From Gemmatimonadales bacterium (lineage in GTDB: Bacteria; Gemmatimonadota; Glassbacteria; GWA2-58-10), in assembly GCA_024278175.1 (NCBI GenBank), contig JAJRTS010000101.1, positions 89,950-123,496 of the forward strand: a stretch of DNA of 33,547 bases, read 5' to 3'. Every line of letters starts with the position of its first letter. The first letter of the stretch is position 1. Shown piece after piece: positions 1,342-13,169 of the stretch. The notes under the pieces were generated by a model, which was given only the letters and a program-made list of their open reading frames with translations, had not been told where the DNA came from and made no database searches. Position numbers and translations under genes: made by a program.

Positions 1342-2295
1342 TCACTCCCTGGTACCTGTGTCCTGCTTGTTGTTCTTTTTTCCCGGCAATCCACCGGCTG
1401 CCAGCAATACCGCCACGGGAACCAATTCGGCCAGGGTCAGCCAGATCCGCGAAATCAGTGCCACCACCGTGGCGGCCACGCTGCCCAGACTGGCGGTGAG
1501 CAGTACGGTGAACATCCCCTCGCGCACGCCGATTCCGCCGGGTGCCACCACCACCAGAAAACCGATAATGTAGCCCACCGCGTAGATCCCGGTCGATTCC
1601 GTCCAGCTCAGTTCCACTCCCGGAATCAGCGAGCGGATGAACCAGTGGAAACAAAGGCCGTAGCCCAGCCATACCAGCACATTAAGGATAAACCATACCA
1701 GCAGATCACGGAAGCGAAGCCTGCTGCTGACCGGGGGTTTGCCCGCCAGCCGGGCGGCCAGGTCCAGCAGACGGTTCAACAGGCCCGGATGCAGGAACAC
1801 CAGCAGCAACGGGGCCGCCAGCCAGGTCCATTGCAGAAGGGATTCGAATCGTCCCGCCAGCGAGGCCGGGAACAGGGCCAGCCCAACCACCGAGCCGGCC
1901 AGCAGCAGCAGCACCTGGTTCAACACGCTGCTGGCCGCGGCATCCATCGCGCTCAGGCCCTCGGCCCGGGCCATCACGGCCATCCCGGCTATCTGCCAGA
2001 CCTTACCGGGAAGGTAGCGGCCCAGGTTAGAGATAAACCACACGTAAGCCGCGCGCCAGGGCCTGATACTCACCCCGCCGATCGCCAGCACCACCATCCG
2101 CCAGATCTGGGTGTTGACCAGAAAGATCAGCGAAATACCCAGCAGCGAAAGCACGAACGGCAACAGCCTCAGTTGCCAGTCAAGCTCACCGAGCTGGCGC
2201 CAGCCCAGCAGCAGGTTGTGATAAATCAGGTAATAACCGAGCACGAACAGAACCAGCGCCTGGCCCGCGCGCACGACCGTTTTTTTCCAGTTCAC
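1342..2295 (-). CDS. Flippase-like integral membrane protein (LPG synthase TM-domain / UPF0104 family)
   Basis: A 317-residue protein with about eight hydrophobic segments and the family block VAPGGIGVREGMF near residue 245. This domain is shared by the membrane part of MprF and by AglD-like proteins. It often sits beside dolichol-phosphate-mannose-type GT2 genes, as here, and is usually taken to handle lipid-linked sugars or phospholipids in the membrane. I place the start at the GTG of VNWKKTVVRAG, four bases after the stop of the upstream YfhO-type gene and preceded by AAGGA. The frame stays open a further 30 codons upstream, but that stretch is cysteine-rich and overlaps the end of the upstream gene in another frame, so it is unlikely to be translated. 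The substrate cannot be read from sequence. Confidence 0.75.
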   Translation of the reverse strand: MNWKKTVVRAGQALVLFVLGYYLIYHNLLLGWRQLGELDWQLRLLPFVLSLLGISLIFLVNTQIWRMVVLAIGGVSIRPWRAAYVWFISNLGRYLPGKVWQIAGMAVMARAEGLSAMDAAASSVLNQVLLLLAGSVVGLALFPASLAGRFESLLQWTWLAAPLLLVFLHPGLLNRLLDLAARLAGKPPVSSRLRFRDLLVWFILNVLVWLGYGLCFHWFIRSLIPGVELSWTESTGIYAVGYIIGFLVVVAPGGIGVREGMFTVLLTASLGSVAATVVALISRIWLTLAELVPVAVLLAAGGLPGKKNNKQDTGTRE

Positions 2296-2299
2296 GTCG

Positions 2300-4843
2300 C
2301 TACCAGTCCTTCCGGTACGTGTGCCGGAGGAGCACTCCGGCCAGCAGCAGCAGGGACAGCAGAGTGATCCGGCGGCCCCAGACAAACGGAGCCGAGTGGT
2401 AGCTCATTGTCACCTCGCGCTCTCCTGCGGGCACGTACACCGCCCTCATCGCCAGATTGGCGCGGTAAACCTTCGCCGGCTCTCCATCGACAGTGGCCCG
2501 CCAGAACGGGTGATAGCTCTCGGCGAAATAGAGCAGCGCGGGATTTTTACCGTTTACGTTCAGGCTGATCCGGTCAAAGCCGTGGTGGGTCGTCTCGATT
2601 GTACCGGGGTCACCACCGGGGCCGGGCAGCGATGAAGTGTCAAACTGCGGCGGCTCGTCCAGAATCAATGTGTTATCGAGATCGAACGACGGGTCGTTGA
2701 TCCGCTTGAGCACAGCGTCGTCGTCCTCGATCAACTCGAACGCCCCGAACAGACGGAAGCGCTCCCAGGCGCCGGGGTTGCGATAGAGTACCCGGCCCGT
2801 GCGCCCGTCTTCGACCACTTTTTCCAAAGTCGGGTACTCACGCTCGAAAAACGGTGTGAGCTGGCTCTTACGGAACATGATAAAGTCGGCGGCCATCAGG
2901 TTCCAGAAACGATTGTGGAGCGTGGCCGGCAGTTGAACCCGGGGATTACCCAGTTGTTCCTGCAGCGATTTCCAGAGCCGCGGATCACGGGCCAGGTTAC
3001 GCTGGGTGTGGGTGCCGTAGAGTTTCTCGAACCACTTGAGCCGCAGCGGCATGCTAGCGTTGACAGTTGGTATGCTGAAATAGAGCAGACTGTTGTCCCA
3101 GTAGTCGCGGTAACCCTCCGGGATAACCGGCGAGGGATAGAAATAGACCCTGTGCCTGGTCAGGTCCTGCTCTTGCATGTGCTCGACAATTTTATCCCGC
3201 GGGTAGGCACTGTTCACATCGGCCACACTGAGCCAGTTAATGTCCATCCGCATCAGATCGGCCCAGGCGAGCACCGCCAGCAACCCCACCAGCACGGCCA
3301 GCGGGATATAACGGGATTTCCAGAGCCAGACCAGCCCCACTATCACCGCCCCCACCACAGCGCTGAGCAGCGCCGCGCGGATAATCTGCGGGTAGTATTG
3401 GGTCAGGATCGGCAGGCGCGCCCGGGCTATCTGCTCGGGCATCATCGCGGCGAGCACACCGGGCATCGCGTCCTTGCCCCCGCCGAGCACCAGGAAAACG
3501 ACCCCCAGCGCCCCCAGGCAATAAAGCAGCACCTTGAAGCCACCGTTCACTTTTTCTATCCGCTTATCGTCCCTGCCGCCACCACCGCCGCTGAGCAGGT
3601 AGTCGATCCCATAGCCGGCCAGGGTAATCAGGCAGAACATGAACACAAAGAACATCTGGTTGGGCGCGCGGAAATCCTTTACCACCGGCAGCAGGTAGTA
3701 AGGCAGGCGGAAAAACGGTGTGTACCCGCCGAAATTCCAGAGCAGGGCCGCCACGCCCAGTCCGCTGAAAAACCAGACCTTGCGGTTGCGGCGCCGCACC
3801 AGGGCCACAGCGGCGAACATCAGCGGCAGCAGGCCCATGTACTCCGAGTGGCCCTTGAAACTCTCCGTGCACCAGTAGGCCGACGGCTCACCGGTGAACC
3901 CCGGCACCACCAGCCCGACAGCTTCCAGCGGGTGCATGGAAAAACTGGTGGCGTGTTCCCAGCCCTCGTAGCCCAGGCCCTGCCCAGCCTGACGGTGGGA
4001 AAACTTTTGGTTAGCCATCGTGGGCGCGAACTGCGCTGCCGAGAGCGAAACAGCCACGGCGAACCCCAGCGTGTAGAAAACTCCCAGGCGAATCACCGGC
4101 TTGACCGACTTGTCCTCGCGCCAGAGGACAACCAGCCGGTAGAGGGCGTAGGCGGAAACGGCCAGAGAGCTGAAGTACATCATCTGCATCATCGGCGAGA
4201 GGATTTGCAGCGCCACGGCCGCGCCCATCAGCAGGAACCAGATCAGCTTGCGACGGTTGAACCCGCGCTCGAGGAAGAAAAACACCAGCGGGGTGAGCAG
4301 GATCACGAACATCCGGCCGTCGTGGCCGCCCTGCAAAGCGCTGGCAACCCAGCCCGTTAACGTAAACATCACCGCGCAGAGCGCGGCGGCCACTTTGGAG
4401 AGGTTCAGTTCCCTGATCCAGAGGTAGCAGAACATACCGCCAAAGAGCGTCATCAACAGGAAAGTCCAGCCGATCGCCCGGTAGAGCGGCAGCAGGAAAT
4501 ACAGAATGCTCAGGGGGAAAAAAATCGGGCCGGGCAGGCTGCCCACATACGGGATCCCGCAGAAACTCAAGGGGTTCCAGAGCGGAAGCCCCTGGCCAGA
4601 GGCCAGCGCGTCGATCATGATCTTGCGCGTCTGCAGACCCTGGGTAACCATGTCCGATCCCATCAGGATCGCCTGGGAATCGAAAACGAACCTGCGGTAA
4701 TAAACTATCAGGGCCAGCAGCAGAAACCCGGCCAGCGCCCAGAACAGGCGGCTGCCCCGCTCGAGGTACTCCGGCAGGTTAAAGTCGGGCAACCTGGCCT
4801 GTGCTGTCGCTTCAGCGGACTTCTTCTTTTTTTTAGCGGCCAT
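2300..4843 (-). CDS. YfhO-family large integral membrane protein (putative GT-C-like)
   Basis: An 847-residue protein with a short lysine-rich N-terminus (MAAKKKKKS), about a dozen hydrophobic segments over residues 35-530, a soluble region of roughly 280 residues and one last membrane helix near the C-terminus. The stretch WNPLSFCGIPYVGS after the first extracytoplasmic loop, and YHPFWRATVDGEPA with a small beta domain before the last helix, are typical of the bacterial YfhO family (PF09586). Gram-positive YfhO is implicated in glycosylating lipoteichoic acid, but the activity of Gram-negative members is not settled. Its place directly upstream of a flippase-like protein and a prenyl-phosphate-mannose synthase suggests that it uses lipid-linked sugars on the outer face of the membrane. 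That role is inference. Confidence 0.75.
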   Translation of the reverse strand: MAAKKKKKSAEATAQARLPDFNLPEYLERGSRLFWALAGFLLLALIVYYRRFVFDSQAILMGSDMVTQGLQTRKIMIDALASGQGLPLWNPLSFCGIPYVGSLPGPIFFPLSILYFLLPLYRAIGWTFLLMTLFGGMFCYLWIRELNLSKVAAALCAVMFTLTGWVASALQGGHDGRMFVILLTPLVFFFLERGFNRRKLIWFLLMGAAVALQILSPMMQMMYFSSLAVSAYALYRLVVLWREDKSVKPVIRLGVFYTLGFAVAVSLSAAQFAPTMANQKFSHRQAGQGLGYEGWEHATSFSMHPLEAVGLVVPGFTGEPSAYWCTESFKGHSEYMGLLPLMFAAVALVRRRNRKVWFFSGLGVAALLWNFGGYTPFFRLPYYLLPVVKDFRAPNQMFFVFMFCLITLAGYGIDYLLSGGGGGRDDKRIEKVNGGFKVLLYCLGALGVVFLVLGGGKDAMPGVLAAMMPEQIARARLPILTQYYPQIIRAALLSAVVGAVIVGLVWLWKSRYIPLAVLVGLLAVLAWADLMRMDINWLSVADVNSAYPRDKIVEHMQEQDLTRHRVYFYPSPVIPEGYRDYWDNSLLYFSIPTVNASMPLRLKWFEKLYGTHTQRNLARDPRLWKSLQEQLGNPRVQLPATLHNRFWNLMAADFIMFRKSQLTPFFEREYPTLEKVVEDGRTGRVLYRNPGAWERFRLFGAFELIEDDDAVLKRINDPSFDLDNTLILDEPPQFDTSSLPGPGGDPGTIETTHHGFDRISLNVNGKNPALLYFAESYHPFWRATVDGEPAKVYRANLAMRAVYVPAGEREVTMSYHSAPFVWGRRITLLSLLLLAGVLLRHTYRKDW

Positions 4844-4877
4844 CGGTTCGGCTCCCGGTCAATTATCGATGCTTTAG

Positions 4878-5082
4878 AAGCGTGTTGAAAATACGAAGAA
4901 TGGGAATAAGGGTCGTCCGGGGCCGTTGCTCGTCATGCCGGCCGAAAGCTGGTGTGAGCAATCTAACTGCTAGAAATAAAATGAATGGCAGAACCGGTAA
5001 AAAACGGCTTGGCTTGCCCTTGGCAACCCGCCCAAACAAAATTTTTCATTTCAAAGGCGTTGAATATCTTTATTCCAACGCC
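4878..5082 (-). repeat. Copy A of a ~205-bp structured inverted repeat
   Basis: Read on the minus strand, this stretch aligns along its whole length with 9831-10037 on the plus strand, roughly three quarters identical by eye. It opens with a hairpin (GGCGTTGGA ... TTCAACGCC, 9-nt loop, one mismatch). An AT-rich stretch, the conserved GCCAAGGGCAAGCCAAGCCGTT and the conserved core CCAGCTTTCGGCCGGCAT follow, and it ends AACACGCTT. GCCGTT and AACGGC can pair, as can GGGTTGCC with GGACGACCC apart from one A-C mismatch and one G-T wobble. The 5' hairpin contains the last codons and stop of gmd, and the other end lies 34 bp before the YfhO-type start. It is not recognised as a known element. Confidence 0.8.
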
Positions 5083-6065
5083 CCCTCAGACTGCTTCTCC
5101 AGCAGGGCCATGTCGTTGTCCACCATCTCGCACACCAGCTCGCCGAACGACACGCCGTAGTCCCAACCCAGCTCCTCGCGCGCCCTGGAGGCGTCGCCCA
5201 CCAGCAGCTCTACCTCCGCCGGGCGGTAGAACTGGTCGTCGATCTTCACATATTTTTCCCAGTCCAGGCCCACATGGCCGAACGCCCTGGCAACAAACTC
5301 GCGCACGGACCAGGTCTTGCCGGTGGCGATCACAAAATCATCCGGCTGCTCGCGCTGAAGCATCAGCCACATAGCGCGCACGTACTCACGGGCGTGGCCC
5401 CAGTCGCGCTTGGCGTCCAGGTTGCCCAGGCGGACCTCGTCGGCCAGGCCCAGCTTGATCCGGGCCACGTGACGGGTGATCTTGCGGGTGACGAACTCGT
5501 AGCCGCGGCGCGGGGATTCGTGGTTGAACAGGATGCCGGTGGAGCCGTGGATGTTGTAGGCGTCGCGGTAATTGCGGGTCAGGTCGAAACCGACCACCTT
5601 GGTGATCCCGTAGGGCGAGCGCGGATAGAACTGCGTCTCTTCCGTTTGCGGCACCTGGCGCACCTTGCCGAACATCTCGCTGCTGCCGGCGAAATAGAAG
5701 CGGCAGCCGGGGGCGTTCTCCCGGATCGATTCGAGCATGAAATGGGTGCCGTTGATATTGGTGTTAAACGTGCTGAACGCGTCCTCGAACGAGTAGCTGA
5801 CAAAGCTCTGGGCCGCCAGATGGTAGCACTCGTTGGGCCGGACGGCGCCGACCGCGTTGAGCAGGCTGGGGTAGCTTTCCAGCGAGGCCGAGTGCAGTTC
5901 GATATCGTCCAGGATATGGCTGATCCTGTGCATGCGATGTTCGGGGTCCTCCAGCGCCACCCGCCGGACGATTCCGTGGACCTCGTAGTCTTTCTCCAGC
6001 AGGAGCTCGGCCAGATAGCTGCCGTCCTGCCCGGTGATGCCGGTAATCAAAGCTTTACGTTTCAT
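5070..6065 (-). CDS. gmd: GDP-mannose 4,6-dehydratase
   Basis: A 331-residue extended short-chain dehydrogenase that converts GDP-mannose to GDP-4-keto-6-deoxymannose, the precursor of GDP-fucose, GDP-rhamnose and GDP-perosamine. Visible features are the NAD(P)-binding TGITGQDGSYL (8-18), the active-site SSEMFG with Glu130, the catalytic pair Tyr152/Lys156 (YGITK) and the GMD signature NHESPRRG...FVTRKIT (181-197). It is slightly shorter than usual (about 340-370 residues). The ATG has AGGA eight bases upstream. No reductase or epimerase for the next step is visible, so the final sugar is unknown. The last four codons and the TAA fall inside the terminal hairpin of repeat copy A, so the C-terminus may have been replaced by repeat sequence. 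Confidence 0.95.
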   Translation of the reverse strand: MKRKALITGITGQDGSYLAELLLEKDYEVHGIVRRVALEDPEHRMHRISHILDDIELHSASLESYPSLLNAVGAVRPNECYHLAAQSFVSYSFEDAFSTFNTNINGTHFMLESIRENAPGCRFYFAGSSEMFGKVRQVPQTEETQFYPRSPYGITKVVGFDLTRNYRDAYNIHGSTGILFNHESPRRGYEFVTRKITRHVARIKLGLADEVRLGNLDAKRDWGHAREYVRAMWLMLQREQPDDFVIATGKTWSVREFVARAFGHVGLDWEKYVKIDDQFYRPAEVELLVGDASRAREELGWDYGVSFGELVCEMVDNDMALLEKQSEGALE

Positions 6066-6187
6066 TTATTGTTCCTCGATTTCGCAATGAACTCTCCCGG
6101 CGACAAGCCGCGAGGAATGCTATCGATCAAATTCTTATCACGCTACCCTGCTAAAATAGTTAAACCGTTCGTAAGGTAAAGACTTAT

Positions 6188-7390
6188 TTACCCCGCGCTG
6201 CGCACAAGGCGGCCGTAAATATTCAGCCACTGAGCCGTAAGACGGTCCCAGTCGAAATACTCCGTAACGTAATCGTATCCCTGCTCACCGAGGCGCAAGG
6301 CAAGCTCGCGGTCGGTCAAAACACGGGAAATGGCCCCGGCCAGCGCCTGCGTGTCTTTCTCCGGTACGGCCAGACCGGTACGCCCATCCTTGAGGATATC
6401 GACAATCCCGCCGACACCGCTGGCTACAACCGGCTTGCGGTAGCTGAGCGCCTCGATCAGCACCACGCCCAGGCCCTCGGTATCGCCCCGCGAGTCGATT
6501 ATGGCCGGCAGGACGAAACAATCGCAGTCGCGGTAGCACCGGGCCAGACGCTCATCGCTCACCCGGCCCAGCATGTTGACCCGCTCGCGCATCGACAGCG
6601 CGTCCACCAGCGCGCCCAGCCTCTCCTGCTCGGGTCCGCCGCCCACGATATCGAGCGCCACCGGGAACGGCAGATCGAGCTCACGGATTGCGCGGATCAG
6701 GTAGGCCACGCCCTTGCGCTCCACCAGCCGGCCGACAAACAGCACCCGGCGGGTGCGCTCCGAGCCCTCGGGCAGCGGCTCGACCTCCCTGGGGGGCGGC
6801 ACCGGCGAACCGTAGGGCACTATCTCCACCTCGGCGCCCGGAGCCACCTCTTGCATCAGATCGCGGGTGTGGGTGCTGATCGCCACCACCAGGTCGCTGA
6901 TCCGGGCGGTCCAGCGCAGGAACGGGATAAACGCGCGCATCCGGTTCATCACCCACATCAACTCCACGCCGTAGAACTGGTTAATCAGCGGCGCTTTGGC
7001 CCAGCGCGCGGCGAAATAACCGAAAATCGCCAGCGGAAACGGCCAGTGGACGTGTATCAAGTCGTACTTTTTCGCCTTCAGCACGCGGCGCAACCCGAAT
7101 ATTCCGCCCAGGATGTAAAACGGGACCAGCAGCAGCACCAGCTTGTTGGCCTTGATCTGATCGGGGATGGTCCTGTCGTGGGAAAGCATTTCGAGCTTGC
7201 GCGGGAGGTAACGAAAACGCCGCACCGGGGTGCCCTCGACCTCGTGGTCGCCCTGCCCGTGCCAGGCGGAAGTGTAAACGTCCACATTCACACCCCGCCG
7301 GCGAAGTTGCGCTATCGTTTCGACCATCCACGGATTGATCACATCGGCGGGGCCGCGCTTGTAGGAGGTGACGATATACAGAACGTTCAC
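6188..7390 (-). CDS. GT4-family glycosyltransferase
   Basis: A 400-residue GT-B enzyme. The N-terminal domain begins MNVLYIVTSYKRG and contains YDLIHVHWPFP. The C-terminal domain carries VLFVGRLVERKGV near residue 220 and the retaining-transferase E-x7-E motif EGLGVVLIE, followed by GVGGIVDIL and GRTGLAV. It would add a sugar from a nucleotide donor to a lipid-linked acceptor on the cytoplasmic side. Donor and acceptor are not predictable, although GDP-mannose or its deoxy derivative is reasonable beside gmd. The GTG start overlaps the TGA of the upstream membrane transferase (GTGA), showing translational coupling. A 122-bp gap separates it from gmd downstream. Confidence 0.85.
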   Translation of the reverse strand: MNVLYIVTSYKRGPADVINPWMVETIAQLRRRGVNVDVYTSAWHGQGDHEVEGTPVRRFRYLPRKLEMLSHDRTIPDQIKANKLVLLLVPFYILGGIFGLRRVLKAKKYDLIHVHWPFPLAIFGYFAARWAKAPLINQFYGVELMWVMNRMRAFIPFLRWTARISDLVVAISTHTRDLMQEVAPGAEVEIVPYGSPVPPPREVEPLPEGSERTRRVLFVGRLVERKGVAYLIRAIRELDLPFPVALDIVGGGPEQERLGALVDALSMRERVNMLGRVSDERLARCYRDCDCFVLPAIIDSRGDTEGLGVVLIEALSYRKPVVASGVGGIVDILKDGRTGLAVPEKDTQALAGAISRVLTDRELALRLGEQGYDYVTEYFDWDRLTAQWLNIYGRLVRSAG

Positions 7391-9012
7391 TTAAGCACCT
7401 CGGCCACTTTCACGTAGCGTTCGTTATAAACCAATTTGAAACTCTCGGGCTGTTTCTGCAGCGCCGGCACCAGATAGCGGCCCGTGGTTCCGCTGACCGC
7501 GTCGATCACCACGTAATCGGTCCGCAGCACCACCGCCAGCACGGAGTCGGCATCCAGGGAGTAGGGGTAGTTCAGCACCTTGCGTCCGCTCAGGTAATGA
7601 AACAGACGCGGTTTGCGCACGGTAACCACCGCATCCTCATCCGTATTTTCACGCACCCAGTCGGCACTCTCGAAAAACTGGCGGAAATTGACCCCATAAC
7701 CGGCGTAGCGGTCGCCGGCCGTATAGCGGGCAAGCAAATGCAGGTTGGTCCTCAGGACGGGCAACTGGGAAAGCAGGCTCCCGGCCGCGAACACGATCAA
7801 CGTCATTGCGGCGACCCGGCCGCGCCCGGGCTGCGTTAATCCGGCCAGAGCGGCGAGGGCAAGTACCGATTCGGCGATATATAGCAGAAACAGCGGTATT
7901 ACCGCCATGATAAAACGAATGTCACTCCAGACGCTGGGCCAGACCAGCACCACACCCAGGGTAGCGAGCACGTAAAAATCCACAACCCCCCGTCGGCGCA
8001 CCAGGCCCAGGCCCAACCCCATCAAAACAAGCAGCGAGAGTAAACCCGCCAGCAACACAACGCTTTTTCCCGAACCGGCGAGCACCTCGGTGCGCAAAAG
8101 AACCCGAGCCTGTTGTCCGAGAAAATAGATCCTAGCATTATCCCTCACCCGTGCGGCCAGATCCGCGGGCCCCATCATGCCCAGGTGCGGGCGATACGGA
8201 TTTTTCATCAGTAACTGCTGCTCGTAGGAGATGGCCTGGTCGCCCTGGACAGTGTTGTTGCGCACAATCCACGGCCCCAGCATCGCGGCGGTTATCAGGG
8301 TAAAAAGGGCCGCCGCGCGCCAGCGGCGGCCCAGCAGCAACGAGGCGATAACGCCCAGCGGCAGGGCGATCCCGGCCGTGCGGATCAGCACGGTCAGCGA
8401 GGAGCAGACAGCACCGCCGGCGAAAAGCGCGATCCGCCCCGGCCGATGTGTTTGCTCGCGCTCACGGATCATCAGATAAATCGCAAGCAGGCTGAAAAAC
8501 AGAAACGGCGACTCGCTGAGAATCCAGTGCGAATACTCAATCAGCACCGGATTAACCGCCACCGCAGCTATTAAAGCCACCCAAACCAGCGGCGGGACCA
8601 TCCTGCGGGTCAGCAGAGCGAACAGCAGCACAGAGCCGGCGGAAAACGCGACCGAGTACATCTTGAACAGAATCACGCTGCGCCCGAAAAGAGCCAACAG
8701 CGGCGCCAGCAGCAGCGGAAAGCCGAACGGATAATTGACGTGAGCCAGCGGCGGGCCCGGATTCATCCCCAGTGAATACCCGTCGCCGGCGCGCAGGATC
8801 GATTCCGCCAGCAGGATATAGGCAGCGTTGTCGCCACCGGTATGCAGTTTGGGATCGAACATGGCCAGGCAGAGCAGGAGATGGATCCCCACCACCACGG
8901 CGATAATCCAGGCTGCGCCGCGGACGATTTTCCCGGTGATTTCCGGCGCAACGGTCCCGGAGCGCGCAGTGGAGCGCTGACCGGAGGTTTTCTTTCGGTG
9001 CCGTGTGCTCAA
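7387..9012 (-). CDS. GT-C-type membrane glycosyltransferase (ArnT/PMT-like)
   Basis: A 541-residue protein with one N-terminal helix, then an extracytoplasmic loop containing an acidic motif (TGGDNAAY, Asp61), about ten more hydrophobic segments up to residue 410 and a soluble C-terminal part. The acidic first loop followed by GFPLLLAPLLALFGRS is characteristic of GT39/GT83-like enzymes, which transfer sugars from polyprenyl-phosphate donors on the periplasmic face. Prenyl-phosphate-sugar synthases are encoded nearby (619-1338, 9061-9795). The best start is a TTG (9012) with AGG seven bases upstream; the hydrophilic basic N-terminus before the first helix fits this. The stop overlaps the next GT4 gene. 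The acceptor is unknown. Confidence 0.7.
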   Translation of the reverse strand: MSTRHRKKTSGQRSTARSGTVAPEITGKIVRGAAWIIAVVVGIHLLLCLAMFDPKLHTGGDNAAYILLAESILRAGDGYSLGMNPGPPLAHVNYPFGFPLLLAPLLALFGRSVILFKMYSVAFSAGSVLLFALLTRRMVPPLVWVALIAAVAVNPVLIEYSHWILSESPFLFFSLLAIYLMIREREQTHRPGRIALFAGGAVCSSLTVLIRTAGIALPLGVIASLLLGRRWRAAALFTLITAAMLGPWIVRNNTVQGDQAISYEQQLLMKNPYRPHLGMMGPADLAARVRDNARIYFLGQQARVLLRTEVLAGSGKSVVLLAGLLSLLVLMGLGLGLVRRRGVVDFYVLATLGVVLVWPSVWSDIRFIMAVIPLFLLYIAESVLALAALAGLTQPGRGRVAAMTLIVFAAGSLLSQLPVLRTNLHLLARYTAGDRYAGYGVNFRQFFESADWVRENTDEDAVVTVRKPRLFHYLSGRKVLNYPYSLDADSVLAVVLRTDYVVIDAVSGTTGRYLVPALQKQPESFKLVYNERYVKVAEVLK

Positions 9013-9060
9013 TAGCCAACCTGCTGGAGATGATTCGGCAAAAGCGTCAACGGAAAGGGA

Positions 9061-9795
9061 TCAGTCGAAAAAGCGGAAATAGACGATCGCGCAGACAGCC
9101 GTGACCGCGTCCTTCCAACCGATCTTCTTTCCCTCGCTGTAATCGCGGCCGTAATAAGATATCGGTGTCTCGTAGATCCGGCAGTGCATCCGCGCCACCT
9201 TGGCCGTAACCTCGGGCTCGAACCCGAAACCGTTGGAGCGCAGGTTTATATTTTTAATCACCTGGCTGCGAAACATCTTGTAGCAGACTTCCATGTCCGT
9301 CAGATTCAGGTTGGTAAACATGTTGGACAGCAGGGTGAGCATCTTATTTCCCACGAAATGCCAGAACATGTGGACCCGGACAGTACTGCCGCTGAAACGG
9401 CTGCCGAACACGACATCCGCCCGGCCGTCGACTATCGGCTTCATCAACTGATGGTATTCCACCGGGTCATACTCCAGGTCGGCGTCCTGGATAATAATCA
9501 CATCGCCGGCGGCTTCGGCAATCCCCCTGCGCACGGCCGCGCCCTTGCCCTGGTTCCGCTCCTGAAAAAACAGCCTGACCCGGGGATCGCTCAGCTTGCG
9601 AAGGTACTCGCGGGTGCCGTCCGTGCTGCCGTCGTCGACAATGACGATTTCCTTGTCCAGATCCACGGCCAGCACGCGACGGATAATCTCCTCGATCGTG
9701 CCGATCTCGTTGTATACCGGCATCACAACCGACAGCAATAATTTATTTTCTCCACCCTGCACACGGGTATCGCCCTGACCCGGCAATGAATTCAT
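9061..9795 (-). CDS. GT2-family glycosyltransferase (polyprenyl-phosphate sugar synthase-like)
   Basis: A 244-residue GT-A protein with SVVMPVYNEIGTIEEII, the nucleotide-binding DDGSTDGT, the metal-binding DADLEYDP and a C-terminal block FGFEPEVTAKVARMHCRIYE followed by YYGRDYSEGKKIGW. The last block resembles soluble glycosyltransferases related to DPM1 and AglJ, so the product is probably a polyprenyl-phosphate hexose used by the GT-C enzyme encoded 48 bp downstream. No membrane helix is present. It is the first gene of the four-gene block (9795 to 5070), and its upstream region holds repeat copy B rather than another gene's end. The sugar is not predictable. Confidence 0.8.
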   Translation of the reverse strand: MNSLPGQGDTRVQGGENKLLLSVVMPVYNEIGTIEEIIRRVLAVDLDKEIVIVDDGSTDGTREYLRKLSDPRVRLFFQERNQGKGAAVRRGIAEAAGDVIIIQDADLEYDPVEYHQLMKPIVDGRADVVFGSRFSGSTVRVHMFWHFVGNKMLTLLSNMFTNLNLTDMEVCYKMFRSQVIKNINLRSNGFGFEPEVTAKVARMHCRIYETPISYYGRDYSEGKKIGWKDAVTAVCAIVYFRFFD

Positions 9796-9830
9796 TCACC
9801 CTTACCTGGATAATTAAGTGATTCTAAAGG

Positions 9831-10037
9831 GGCGTTGAAATAAAGACGTTCAACGCCCTGGGATGAAAAATTTAGCTTGGCTGGTTGTCAAGGGCAAGAC
9901 AAGCCGTTCCTTTTTATAATGCTGCTATTTATGTTATACCAAGTAGTTACATTGCTCCCGCCAGCTTTCGGCCAGCATAACGGGGAACGGCCCTTGACAA
10001 CCCAATTCCCATACTTGCGTTATTTTTCAACACGCTT
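9831..10037 (+). repeat. Copy B of the ~205-bp structured inverted repeat
   Basis: Opposite orientation to copy A (4878-5082). It starts with a hairpin: GGGCGTTGAA (9830-9839) pairs perfectly with TTCAACGCCC (9849-9858). A second, longer fold pairs GGTTGTCAAGGG (9883-9894) with CCCTTGACAACC (9991-10002), stacked on CGTTCC-type pairing of 9904-9910 with 9984-9990. The core CCAGCTTTCGGCCAGCAT (9961-9978) differs from copy A at one position. It fills most of the 296-bp gap between the GT2 start at 9795 and the end of the next GT2 at 10092. Short reading frames inside it are not conserved between the copies. It could be a MITE-like element, a structured RNA or a leader region. Confidence 0.8.
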
Positions 10038-10091
10038 AATCCGGGAAAATAACACAATCCGCCCCTGGCGCGCAAGCCGTCCATCACACGG

Positions 10092-11039
10092 TCAATCATC
10101 GTGTTCACGGTCGGAGCGGAGGCGCTCCTCGATCCGGTCGAGGCGGTCGAAAAGCTGGCCGAGCAACTCGGTGACAAATCCGAGGGTAAACAGTACGCCG
10201 CCACCCAGGAGCAACAGGATCACCAGGTAGAGCAGCGGGCGGTAGCCCTGATAGAGTACGAACCTGAGATAAAGAGCGACACAACCGATCACAAAACCCA
10301 GCCCCAGCAACAGCATGCCCCCGCTGCCGAACAGAGTCATCGGCTTGCGGCCGAAACTGATCATGAACTTTACGCTCACCAGGTCCAGCAAGCCCACCAC
10401 CGCGCGCCAGGAGCCGGTGTATTTGGACTCCCCGTGACGGCGGGGCAACAGCTCGATATCGATCTCGCCCACGCGGTAGCCCTTGTTGAACGCCAGCACC
10501 ACGAAAAAACGATGCCAGTCGTGGCGCAGGGGAGTTTCCGCCAAGGCCTGACGAACGAACGATTTCATCGAGTTCAGATCCCGCACCGGCACCTTGAACA
10601 GCCGCCGGGAAAGCCAGTTGTAAATCCCGGAAACGAATTTTTTGCCGTAGTTTCCCACCTTGCGGCCGCAGACGATGTCGTAGCCCTCGTCCATCCTGGC
10701 CAGAAAACGCGGAATATCCTCTACCGCGTGCTGCATGTCGGCGTCGTAGAGCACCACCCTGTCGGCCCTGGCATGGGCGTTACCGGTAGCCATCGCCTCG
10801 GCCTTGCCCAGGTTTGCCCGATGGCGCAGTACCCGCAGGCGCGGCTCGGCCTCGGCGATTTCCCTGGCCGCCTCCCAGGTCCCGTCCGTGCTGCCGTCGT
10901 CCACCAGCACGATCTCGCCCGCCAGCGAGTGCCTGTCGAACATCGCGCACAATTCGCCGGCCAGCTCGGGTATGTTTTCGCGCTCGTTGAATGCCGGCAC
11001 AAGCACGGTCACATCCGGGCGTTTCACGTTCTGGCTCAT
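10092..11039 (-). CDS. GT2-family glycosyltransferase with C-terminal membrane helices (GtrB/ArnC-like)
   Basis: A 315-residue protein with TVLVPAFNERENI, DDGSTDGT, the metal site DADMQH and RRHGESKYTG at the end of the catalytic domain. Two hydrophobic helices follow (about 235-258 and 265-290), then a charged, probably amphipathic tail. This is the architecture of GtrB, ArnC and related polyprenyl-phosphate glycosyltransferases, which make prenyl-phosphate-linked sugars for periplasmic transferases or flippases. It is a third candidate prenyl-phosphate-sugar synthase in the locus, suggesting several lipid-linked donors. It lies 88 bp downstream of the DUF362 gene in the same direction. Substrate unknown. 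Confidence 0.85.
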   Translation of the reverse strand: MSQNVKRPDVTVLVPAFNERENIPELAGELCAMFDRHSLAGEIVLVDDGSTDGTWEAAREIAEAEPRLRVLRHRANLGKAEAMATGNAHARADRVVLYDADMQHAVEDIPRFLARMDEGYDIVCGRKVGNYGKKFVSGIYNWLSRRLFKVPVRDLNSMKSFVRQALAETPLRHDWHRFFVVLAFNKGYRVGEIDIELLPRRHGESKYTGSWRAVVGLLDLVSVKFMISFGRKPMTLFGSGGMLLLGLGFVIGCVALYLRFVLYQGYRPLLYLVILLLLGGGVLFTLGFVTELLGQLFDRLDRIEERLRSDREHDD

Positions 11040-11127
11040 TTGCGTTTCGCTCTCCTCAAGGTTTATCTTCTTCTAGCCCGCAGATAGCAAAATCCGGTCC
11101 ATTGCCTCAGGCAGGCGGACGACCGGT

Positions 11128-12210
11128 TCAATACTGCTGGAACAATTTACCCCACTTCGTCTCGTTCAGCCAGCGCCTGACCACCGGCTTGCCCCTGAGC
11201 GGGTACCAGAGCTTGTCGTGGTAGCAATAACTGCCGAACACGAACAGGTAGATCAGGGGCGTATGGAACAGCAAGCGCTGCAACACTTTAAGCGGACTGA
11301 ACCAGAACAGGTCACCAATCCGGCTGGCCACGTTGTCGCCCACGGGAAACTTGAGATTGATTCCAGACACGTCCTCGCCCACAACCTCTATCCCGCGCGG
11401 ATCGCCCACGCCCAAGCCCTGCTCGTGAGCGAGGCGGATATAGCCGATCTTCAGCGGATCGAACCCCATCAGCCTGCTGGAAACCGCATCGACCGCCACG
11501 CTGTCGGCCCCGGCGATAATCAGGTCGGCCTGAACCGGCACCATCGTACGCGGGCCGGGGCCGCTGCCGCAGGTGGTGCCGTCGACGAACGAGAAAATCC
11601 CGGCATGGATTTCCTGCTGGATCCGCAGCAGATCGACCAGGGTTTCGTGGATACAACTGTGCGTGTAGTGCCGCTTGCGGTTAAGTAGCCCGCCGAACGC
11701 GTTTTTCATCGCCCCGGTGGTGGTGGTGTAGATATGTGTTTTCACCGTGGGCAGATGGATGATATTCGTGCCGGTAAACTCGCGGGGAATCGTGATCCCC
11801 TCGGGGTAGATCTTATCGAGCACCAGCATTTTCCCCTTGGGGCGATAGACTTCCCAGGTAATATCTTCCTTGCGGAAGTTATAGAGCGTGGGCACCTTGT
11901 AGCGCTCCAGCACGCCCACATAGCGGTTGAGCTGCTCGCCCTTGTACGCGTCGGTAACCACGGTGTCGTTCTGCACACAGACAAGATCGTCGAACCCGTT
12001 ATCTTTCAGCGCGCGGATCGAGCCCTCCAACTGCCACGGCGTGGTGTTGGCGCCGGGATACAGGAAATGCCAGGAGATATTGTCCTTGAGAATCGTCCTG
12101 GCCCCGGCGGCAAGCGCATCGGTCATCCCCGCCAGCTTGGCCAGGGAGCCGTAGTCTTCCAGCACCGTCTGCGGTGTGGTCTTGAGCACCGCTACTTTCG
12201 CTTTACCCAT
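11128..12210 (-). CDS. DUF362 domain protein
   Basis: A 360-residue protein of the DUF362 family (PF04015): the N-terminal AKVAVLKTTPQTVLEDY, central IIHLPTVKTHIYTTTTGAMKNAFGG and IIAGADSVAVDAVSSRLMGFDP are the family's recognisable blocks. Many members carry ferredoxin-type cysteine motifs; none is present here, and the C-terminus is instead a hydrophobic/aromatic stretch (LLFHTPLIYLFVFGSYCYH). I chose the ATG of MGKAKVAV, preceded by AGGAGG ten bases upstream; the longer open frame starts 22 codons earlier without better support. The function of DUF362 proteins is not established. Its position between a prenyl-phosphate phosphoribosyltransferase-like gene and a GT2 suggests a glycan-linked role, but this is association only. 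Confidence 0.8.
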   Translation of the reverse strand: MGKAKVAVLKTTPQTVLEDYGSLAKLAGMTDALAAGARTILKDNISWHFLYPGANTTPWQLEGSIRALKDNGFDDLVCVQNDTVVTDAYKGEQLNRYVGVLERYKVPTLYNFRKEDITWEVYRPKGKMLVLDKIYPEGITIPREFTGTNIIHLPTVKTHIYTTTTGAMKNAFGGLLNRKRHYTHSCIHETLVDLLRIQQEIHAGIFSFVDGTTCGSGPGPRTMVPVQADLIIAGADSVAVDAVSSRLMGFDPLKIGYIRLAHEQGLGVGDPRGIEVVGEDVSGINLKFPVGDNVASRIGDLFWFSPLKVLQRLLFHTPLIYLFVFGSYCYHDKLWYPLRGKPVVRRWLNETKWGKLFQQY

Positions 12211-12302
12211 CCTGACCTTGCCTCCTGAGCACCGCCTACCCTGGACTGCAATCTCGCCAAGTAAAAAACAGATCAAAAACCATGTTATATTTCAGTATAC
12301 TT

Positions 12303-13169
12303 TTAATACAAAACCAGCCAGACCGCAACCGCCCAGCCCGCCACCGACGCCAGCAGCAGAGGGTCGCGCACGAGCAGCACCGCCGGGTCTCCACCCTGCT
12401 TACGCTCGTGGACCAGATACAGGTAACGGAAAATCCCGTAGATCACAAACGGCGCCGTGGCCAGCAGCCCCCGGCCACCCACTTTGAACACGGTCTCCGG
12501 GCTGACTGTATACAGCACGTAGCAGACCAGCGTGCTGGGAGTTACCACGGAAATCAGCTGGTCCAGAAAATACGGGCTGTAGTGGGCCAGCACGGCCCTG
12601 TGGTTCTCCCCGCCGCTCTCTAAAACCAGCAACTCGTTGCGGCGCTTGCCGAATCCCAGAAACAGGCTGAGCAGAAAGGTGCAGATCAGCAGCCAGTGGC
12701 TTGTTTCCACCCCTATCGCGAACGTGCCGGCCAGTACGCGCAGCACGAACCCGGCGGCGATAGTCATCACATCGAGGATCACAACCTGTTTCAGCCAGAT
12801 TGAGTATAAAATATTTAACAGCATATAGGCGAATATTACCGTTCTCGCACTATCAGGCAGAAGGTACCCCAGCCCCAGCCCGGCGCAGCCAAGCGCCACC
12901 GCGAAAAGCCCGACCCCAACTCCGCCGATCCGTCCCGCTGCAATCGGACGATCCTTTTTGAGCGGGTGCAACCGGTCCTGCGCGGCATCTTTCAGGTCAT
13001 TAAAGATGTAAACGAACGAGGAGACCAGACAGAACGAGACAAATGCGGTAATCGCGTGCAGCAGAGCTGTCGAATCGGTGGCTTTCCCGGCGAACAGCAG
13101 CCCGGCGAACACCAGCAGGTTTTTGGACCAGTGCACCGGCCGCATGGACGTGATCAGTTCGCGGATCAA
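12303..13169 (-). CDS. UbiA-family polyprenyl-phosphate phosphoribosyltransferase (DPPR-synthase-like)
   Basis: A 288-residue membrane protein with about eight helices. The first aspartate motif is NDLKDAAQD (57-65), followed by RLHPLKKDRPIA, and the second is the YSIWLKQVVILD region. The N-terminal MRPVHWSKNLLVFAGLLFAG and the RLHP-K-RPIA block match decaprenyl-phosphate phosphoribosyltransferases (Rv3806c type) better than quinone-pathway UbiA/MenA. Such enzymes join phosphoribosyl pyrophosphate to a polyprenyl phosphate, giving a precursor of prenyl-phosphate arabinose or ribose. The DprE1/DprE2 epimerase partners are not in the window. Six base pairs separate it from the upstream GT4 gene, indicating an operon. 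The exact prenyl acceptor is unknown. Confidence 0.8.
   Translation of the reverse strand: MIRELITSMRPVHWSKNLLVFAGLLFAGKATDSTALLHAITAFVSFCLVSSFVYIFNDLKDAAQDRLHPLKKDRPIAAGRIGGVGVGLFAVALGCAGLGLGYLLPDSARTVIFAYMLLNILYSIWLKQVVILDVMTIAAGFVLRVLAGTFAIGVETSHWLLICTFLLSLFLGFGKRRNELLVLESGGENHRAVLAHYSPYFLDQLISVVTPSTLVCYVLYTVSPETVFKVGGRGLLATAPFVIYGIFRYLYLVHERKQGGDPAVLLVRDPLLLASVAGWAVAVWLVLY

Follow-up and report, generated by a model that had tools for sequence, protein, structure and literature searches.

Copies A and B of a short interspersed repeat, found in a 33,547-nt stretch of DNA from a Gemmatimonadales bacterium (hereafter the window), belong to a family whose copies, as the family-wide data support, are under selection for base pairing. 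The family was directly observed to have defined ends, a target duplication, a target preference, a high copy number and intergenic siting. We consider the element to be probably a MITE of about 207 bp that depends for its movement on a DDE-type transposase encoded at another locus, and whose fold is needed by the lineages that spread.

Copy B is a long-form copy of 209 nt on the + strand (9829-10037) and matched the profile over nearly the whole model. Its left end (9829-9859) consists of the terminal inverted repeat GGGGCGTTGAAATAAA and an 11-pair hairpin (9829-9839 with 9849-9859), made up of 10 Watson-Crick pairs (9830-9839 with 9849-9858) and a terminal G.U. The 5' arm of an outer helix (9883-9894) pairs with a 3' arm that contains TTGACA (9991-10002), and is followed by the unpaired 5' bulge CAAGACAAG (9895-9903), which is slow-changing as judged by substitution rates. 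The inner helix (9904-9911 with 9983-9990) encloses a variable middle (9912-9982) that differs between genomes and gives way to a short loop in the short form described below. The right end (10022-10037) carries the other terminal inverted repeat, with the reverse complement AAGCGTGTTGAAAAAT. The left target 5-mer CTAAA (9824-9828) differs from the right 5-mer AATCC (10038-10042), and hence no duplication is visible at copy B. The perfect 10-bp 5' hairpin and the long-range 12-bp stem of the preliminary description were borne out in copy B, the stem with 12 of 12 pairs, as was its continuation by 9904-9910 with 9984-9990 (7 of 7 pairs). The stretch 9880-10009 had a folding energy of -44.4 kcal/mol, 4.3 sd better than dinucleotide shuffles (0/200 equal); the fold of the 5' 149 nt alone was unremarkable (z -1.0).

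Copy A is a long-form copy of 207 nt on the - strand (4878-5084). The similarity between the two copies spans the whole element, with a 79% match over the 82 nt joined by the repeat search. In the left-end hairpin of copy A (5054-5084, - strand) every pair is intact (8 Watson-Crick and 3 G.U). The outer helix, with its 5' arm at 5017-5028 and its 3' arm at 4911-4922 (both - strand), retains 8 Watson-Crick pairs and 1 G.U among 12 positions, with 3 mismatches, and the inner helix has 6 Watson-Crick pairs, 1 G.U and 1 mismatch. It had been proposed that the arms of copy A changed on both sides and still pair, and this did not hold: the outer stems of A and B differ by four one-sided changes, with no pair altered in both partners, and the sole double-changed pair of the inner helix is broken in copy A. 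Since these two copies show no compensation, the argument for selection rests on the family and not on them. As to gene context, positions 1342-13169 of the window (- strand) hold a run of envelope-type genes, with YfhO-like, GDP-mannose dehydratase, glycosyltransferase (groups 1 and 2), DUF362 and UbiA genes.

We screened 61 genomes, namely that of the window (G000; 4.18 Mb, 113 contigs), 5 others of its family and 55 of its phylum. Matches to the element were present in 4 of the 61 (G000, G001, G002 and G003), which belong to a single Glassbacteria-like family. A protein flanking the element had its best named relatives in Candidatus Glassbacteria MAGs (72% and 68%), which makes this group the most likely one for the host. 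No match was found in viral contigs (by pattern search), plasmids or phages. Within G000, BLAST with copy B gave at least 40 matches among those scored, from 190 candidates, the exact inverted pair of stem arms occurred 61 times, and the exact left-end 15-mer 63 times. A hand count in the commonly covered range gave 51 left ends and 50 stems, with 25 shared. These counts suggest roughly 100 copies in the counted range and about 125 in G000, which are rough values skewed to young copies. For the analyses below, 142 distinct full copies were read (87 in G000, 49 in G003 and 6 in another relative), and 49 partial matches were excluded. Recruitment of 22 of the 142 copies was solely by the exact-stem pattern, which introduces a selection bias, and the pairing test was therefore repeated without them.

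Copies of about 207 bp run from GGGGCGTTGAAATAAA on the left to TTTTTCAACACGCTT on the right, and their terminal inverted repeats are imperfect (GGGGCGTTGAAATAAA versus AAGCGTGTTGAAAAATA). Both flanks have the target consensus YTARA. After 3 of the 142 copies with insufficient flank were dropped, an exact 5-bp target duplication was found in 31 of 139 copies versus 6.9 expected when flanks were swapped between copies. By genome, these numbers were 20/86, 8/47 and 3/6, versus 4.0, 2.1 and 0.8 expected, and the excess was confined to one register. Six of the 142 copies adjoin the end of another copy, mostly across a YTARA-like 5-mer (right flank of L183, L231, L235, L297 and L300; left flank of L228). 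Based on gene prediction with a simple codon model of our own, no gene crossed the element in any of 74 copies, which places them between genes, and in 7 of the 74 the left end lay one base past the end of the upstream gene. For the 56 copies with both neighbours, these were in tandem and antisense to the element in 25, in tandem and sense in 13, convergent in 10 and divergent in 8. Left ends lacking a right end were inspected at L180, L236, L242, L252, L285, L293, L294 and L306; L242 is a short form, and the remaining seven represent decayed or solitary ends. Left-end hairpins of 30-40 nt stand alone, with no right end, at L025:1324-1364, L252:1946-1978, L285:1487-1515 and L306:1501-1539. With its terminal inverted repeats, 5-bp duplication, short length and many intergenic copies, the element has the characteristics of a MITE, and it may be classified as a putative non-autonomous transposon, presumably of DDE type.

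Selection on pairing was assessed at 31 structure pairs against a tree-aware null of 300 histories that preserved branch substitutions and column rates. Among 92 copies, 11 pair-preserving double changes were observed (4 in the hairpin, 3 in the outer and 4 in the inner helix), versus 1.3 on average and 6 at most in the 300 null histories. With all 142 copies there were 7 double changes versus 1.56 (maximum 6; 0/300 as many), and the G000 copies alone gave 6 versus 1.5 (0/300). After removal of the exact-stem-pattern recruits, the remaining 120 copies still gave 7 versus 1.31 (0/300), and the 65 remaining copies of G000 gave 6 versus 1.32 (2/300); in the set without these recruits, 130 pairs were broken versus a null mean of 185 and minimum of 153. 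The 49 copies of G003 alone had 0 double changes, a test without power because the null expectation was just 0.17. The count of double changes shifts with alignment and tree, from 7 to 11, and slid registers on the tree gave 0-2 per helix. Two smaller alignments were examined cell by cell. In A4 (30 BLAST-chosen copies, omitting L024, which is near-identical to L018), 95.6% of 917 cells were paired and 11 were double-changed, versus 3.5 in shuffles (0/500) and 0-7 in slid registers. In A5 (15 rows, across genera), 23 cells were double-changed versus 7.3 in shuffles (0/500), with 0-7 in slid registers; just 5 pairs were involved, a count that is not unusual (122/500).

A pairwise G-test with a similar null was weaker. 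It placed the inner-helix pair 9909-9985 at the top of 20,910 column pairs. In this R-scape-like test, for which the pair scores are valid for the outer and inner helices and void for the left-hairpin rows, no pair was significant over all 20,910 (best E 3.7). When the 31 structure pairs were tested alone, two passed, 9909-9985 (0.0055) and 9885-10000 (0.048). Inner-helix pairs 9905-9989 and 9909-9985 covary. The number of changes per site was 1.8-5.6 in the paired parts and 4.7 in the bulge of the long form, but reached 12.2 for the middle and 13.9-15.4 for the spacers. Selection on structure, which the preliminary description had suggested from copies A and B, finds its support in the full family and not in the comparison of the two.

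A second size version of the element, a short form of about 140 nt, was traced from the copy in G002. Its cores were recognisable at 12 loci in G000, G001, G002 and G003, and there were several further decayed loci. The short form retains the left-end hairpin, often with GGGCCG and CGGCCC replacing GGGGCG and CGCCCC, as well as the outer helix and a 5' bulge of 8-10 nt. The letters of its inner helix differ (TCAGCC/GGCTGA, TCGGCC/GGCCGA or GGCC/GGCC), with a closing loop of 3-4 nt. Eight of the 11 foldable cores gave an outer helix, 5' bulge and inner helix, 2 were without the inner helix and 1 had shifted pairing, while the twelfth has a damaged arm. Evolution has preserved the architecture of the fold across two size versions, which suggests that the fold matters for spread. 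At L325 (G003:C329, about 3665-3858), a short-form copy is interrupted by an inserted long inverted repeat of about 195 bp with AAGGATGCCAGCCCGCG arms, perhaps another small mobile repeat.

Across three to five draft genomes, a transposase partner was sought by end scans at 40 loci of PF01609, PF01797, PF13701, PF00665 and PF00872, with GGGGCGTTGAAA and TTTCAACACGC as the ends expected around an autonomous partner. At none of the 40 loci of these five Pfam families did element ends bracket a transposase. At L125 a long-form copy and a PF01609 match are separated by about 490 nt, and at L204 (G000:C18) a decayed short-form copy lies about 140 nt past an IS200; both are cases of proximity only. 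Copies of IS200 related to that of L204 occur in L200 and L211. Beside the left ends that lack a right end, no transposase was seen when the ORFs of L180, L236, L242, L293 and part of L306 were inspected by eye.

Of the readings offered in the preliminary description, a transposition-tied structure fits best, given the ends, duplication, YTARA target and copy number and the occurrence of solo and end-to-end copies; a host leader is not supported, and a hairpin of the IS200/IS605 or REPIN type does not fit. An RNA could account for several observations. The element might be transcribed as a structured small RNA, or it might form a hairpin that RNases process within neighbouring mRNAs, a role proposed for ERIC and Correia, and the strong + strand folds (mean z -3.1 in G000, -5.1 in G003 and -3.9 in G001), the slow-changing unpaired bulge and the compensated pairs are all in line with this. 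However, the opposite strand folds equally well (mean z -3.2, -4.3 and -4.0, respectively), and one-step departures from pairing were nearly equal in number for G.U and A.C (55 versus 60 events), with no strand bias. Such an absence of bias is expected for a DNA-level signal; the decay of dead copies would blur an RNA signal too. Searches of copy B yielded neither a terminator nor a sigma-70 promoter, and Rfam gave 0 matches in the window at the gathering score, with only weak, chance-level matches for the element. Taken with the mixed orientation of neighbouring genes, the lack of a terminator or promoter in copy B and of strand bias speaks against a host leader. We regard a transcribed element in either of these roles as unlikely; a non-coding RNA produced by the element itself is conceivable. 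The arms might instead be conserved as outward promoters, as TTGACA, the sigma-70 -35 hexamer, faces outward in both (9994-9999 and 9886-9891 of the window) and is nearly invariant. The best -10 at 16-18 nt averaged 3.2-3.7 of 6 positions versus 2.3-3.0 in shuffles, but there is no clear -10: in 5 of 6 sets, matches at 5 or more of the 6 positions did not exceed their frequency in shuffles. Given this and the 0 promoter sites in copy B, we consider outward promoters very improbable.

To our knowledge, IS200/IS605 elements have neither terminal inverted repeats nor target duplication, and we know of no target duplication in REPINs. The terminal inverted repeats and 5-bp duplication thus rule out an IS200/IS605-derived element. 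REPIN hairpins do carry compensatory changes according to the available text of PMC3116915, and the solo left-end hairpins would also suit a Y1 (RAYT) transposase acting on hairpins. Against this stand the duplication, the failure to find a Y1 match in G003 (at least 49 full copies; genome 84% complete) and the identity of the strong Y1 match at L204, an IS200-type element that has a right-end hairpin of its own, so that we give REPIN/RAYT or any other Y1 substrate almost no credence. Another possibility is that the arms covary merely through a dimeric protein on double-stranded palindromes, with the hairpin never forming. The left-end hairpin and outer arms are plain inverted repeats, double-stranded sites predict the observed lack of strand bias, and one protein on two arms would yield covariation too. 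The inner helix, however, lies flush with the outer arm on the 3' side and is separated from it by the 7-10 nt bulge on the 5' side, an unequal spacing at which it nevertheless covaries, and the short form swaps the inner helix wholesale with pairing retained. The unequal spacing and the helix replacement point to a folded strand rather than a pair of simple binding sites, and we find dimer binding alone rather unlikely.

Known bacterial MITEs form long stem-loops (PMC2229807 and PMC10969869, as far as the available texts go), and the available text of PMC2229807 gives mostly no known partner for Correia/NEMIS, ERIC/IRU, RUP and YPAL. On the same text, the element resembles these in its size class of 100-200 bp, intergenic position, terminal repeats, duplication, copy number of up to about 100 or more and stem-loop. 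It differs from them in ends without TA and a 5-bp YTARA duplication, in having a separate left-end hairpin and a central bulged stem between spacers rather than one terminus-joining stem, and in occurring in two size forms, in Glassbacteria-like genomes only among the 61 screened. Like REPINs, it is miniature mobile DNA with hairpin pairing preserved by compensatory changes (PMC3116915, available text); unlike them, it has a target duplication and DDE-like ends, and no linked Y1 transposase was found. The two hairpin arms and linker recall the CIR elements of Caulobacter, for which the table in PMC2229807 gives no terminal inverted repeats; the present element has these and the duplication. 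Compensatory hairpin changes are also reported for Borrelia intergenic repeats in the available text of PMC2674063. Hence, with REPINs and Borrelia repeats as precedents, hairpin selection within such a short repeat is no novelty by itself; the literature searched showed no case in which it is joined by a target duplication of 5 bp, a bulge that is conserved and two size forms. Our searches returned no published record of this repeat family and nothing on Glassbacteria and transposable elements.

Based on these results, the MITE would be mobilised by a DDE-type transposase supplied in trans and acting at the imperfect terminal inverted repeats, with insertion at YTARA generating the 5-bp duplication. 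The left-end hairpin and bulged central stem would be required by spreading lineages. Inserted copies would then decay, so that single mismatches accumulate in old copies, and compensated pairs would be inherited through active lineages. Since no RNA strand is favoured, the hairpin is read as a mobility signal rather than as a host leader or terminator, and we infer that the fold serves mobility. Most likely it is a DNA signal, folded or doubly bound, which promotes synapsis of the two ends or which the transposase or a host factor recognises. A more specific and tentative proposal is that the spread of this DDE miniature transposon depends on a folded core, which its transposase or a host factor would recognise in the form of single-stranded DNA or RNA. 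This core would comprise the outer helix, the 5' bulge of 7-10 nt, which is conserved, and the inner helix, and would have come through a rebuild between the 207-nt and 140-nt forms.

Stable hairpins are a common depiction of bacterial MITEs, and selection on these hairpins has rarely been tested. Here, pairing against a tree-aware null, a measured target duplication and two size forms were examined together. Should movement require the fold, nucleic-acid structure would be something on which DDE-type miniature elements can depend, and the natural variants of this family would allow such structure dependence to be tested.
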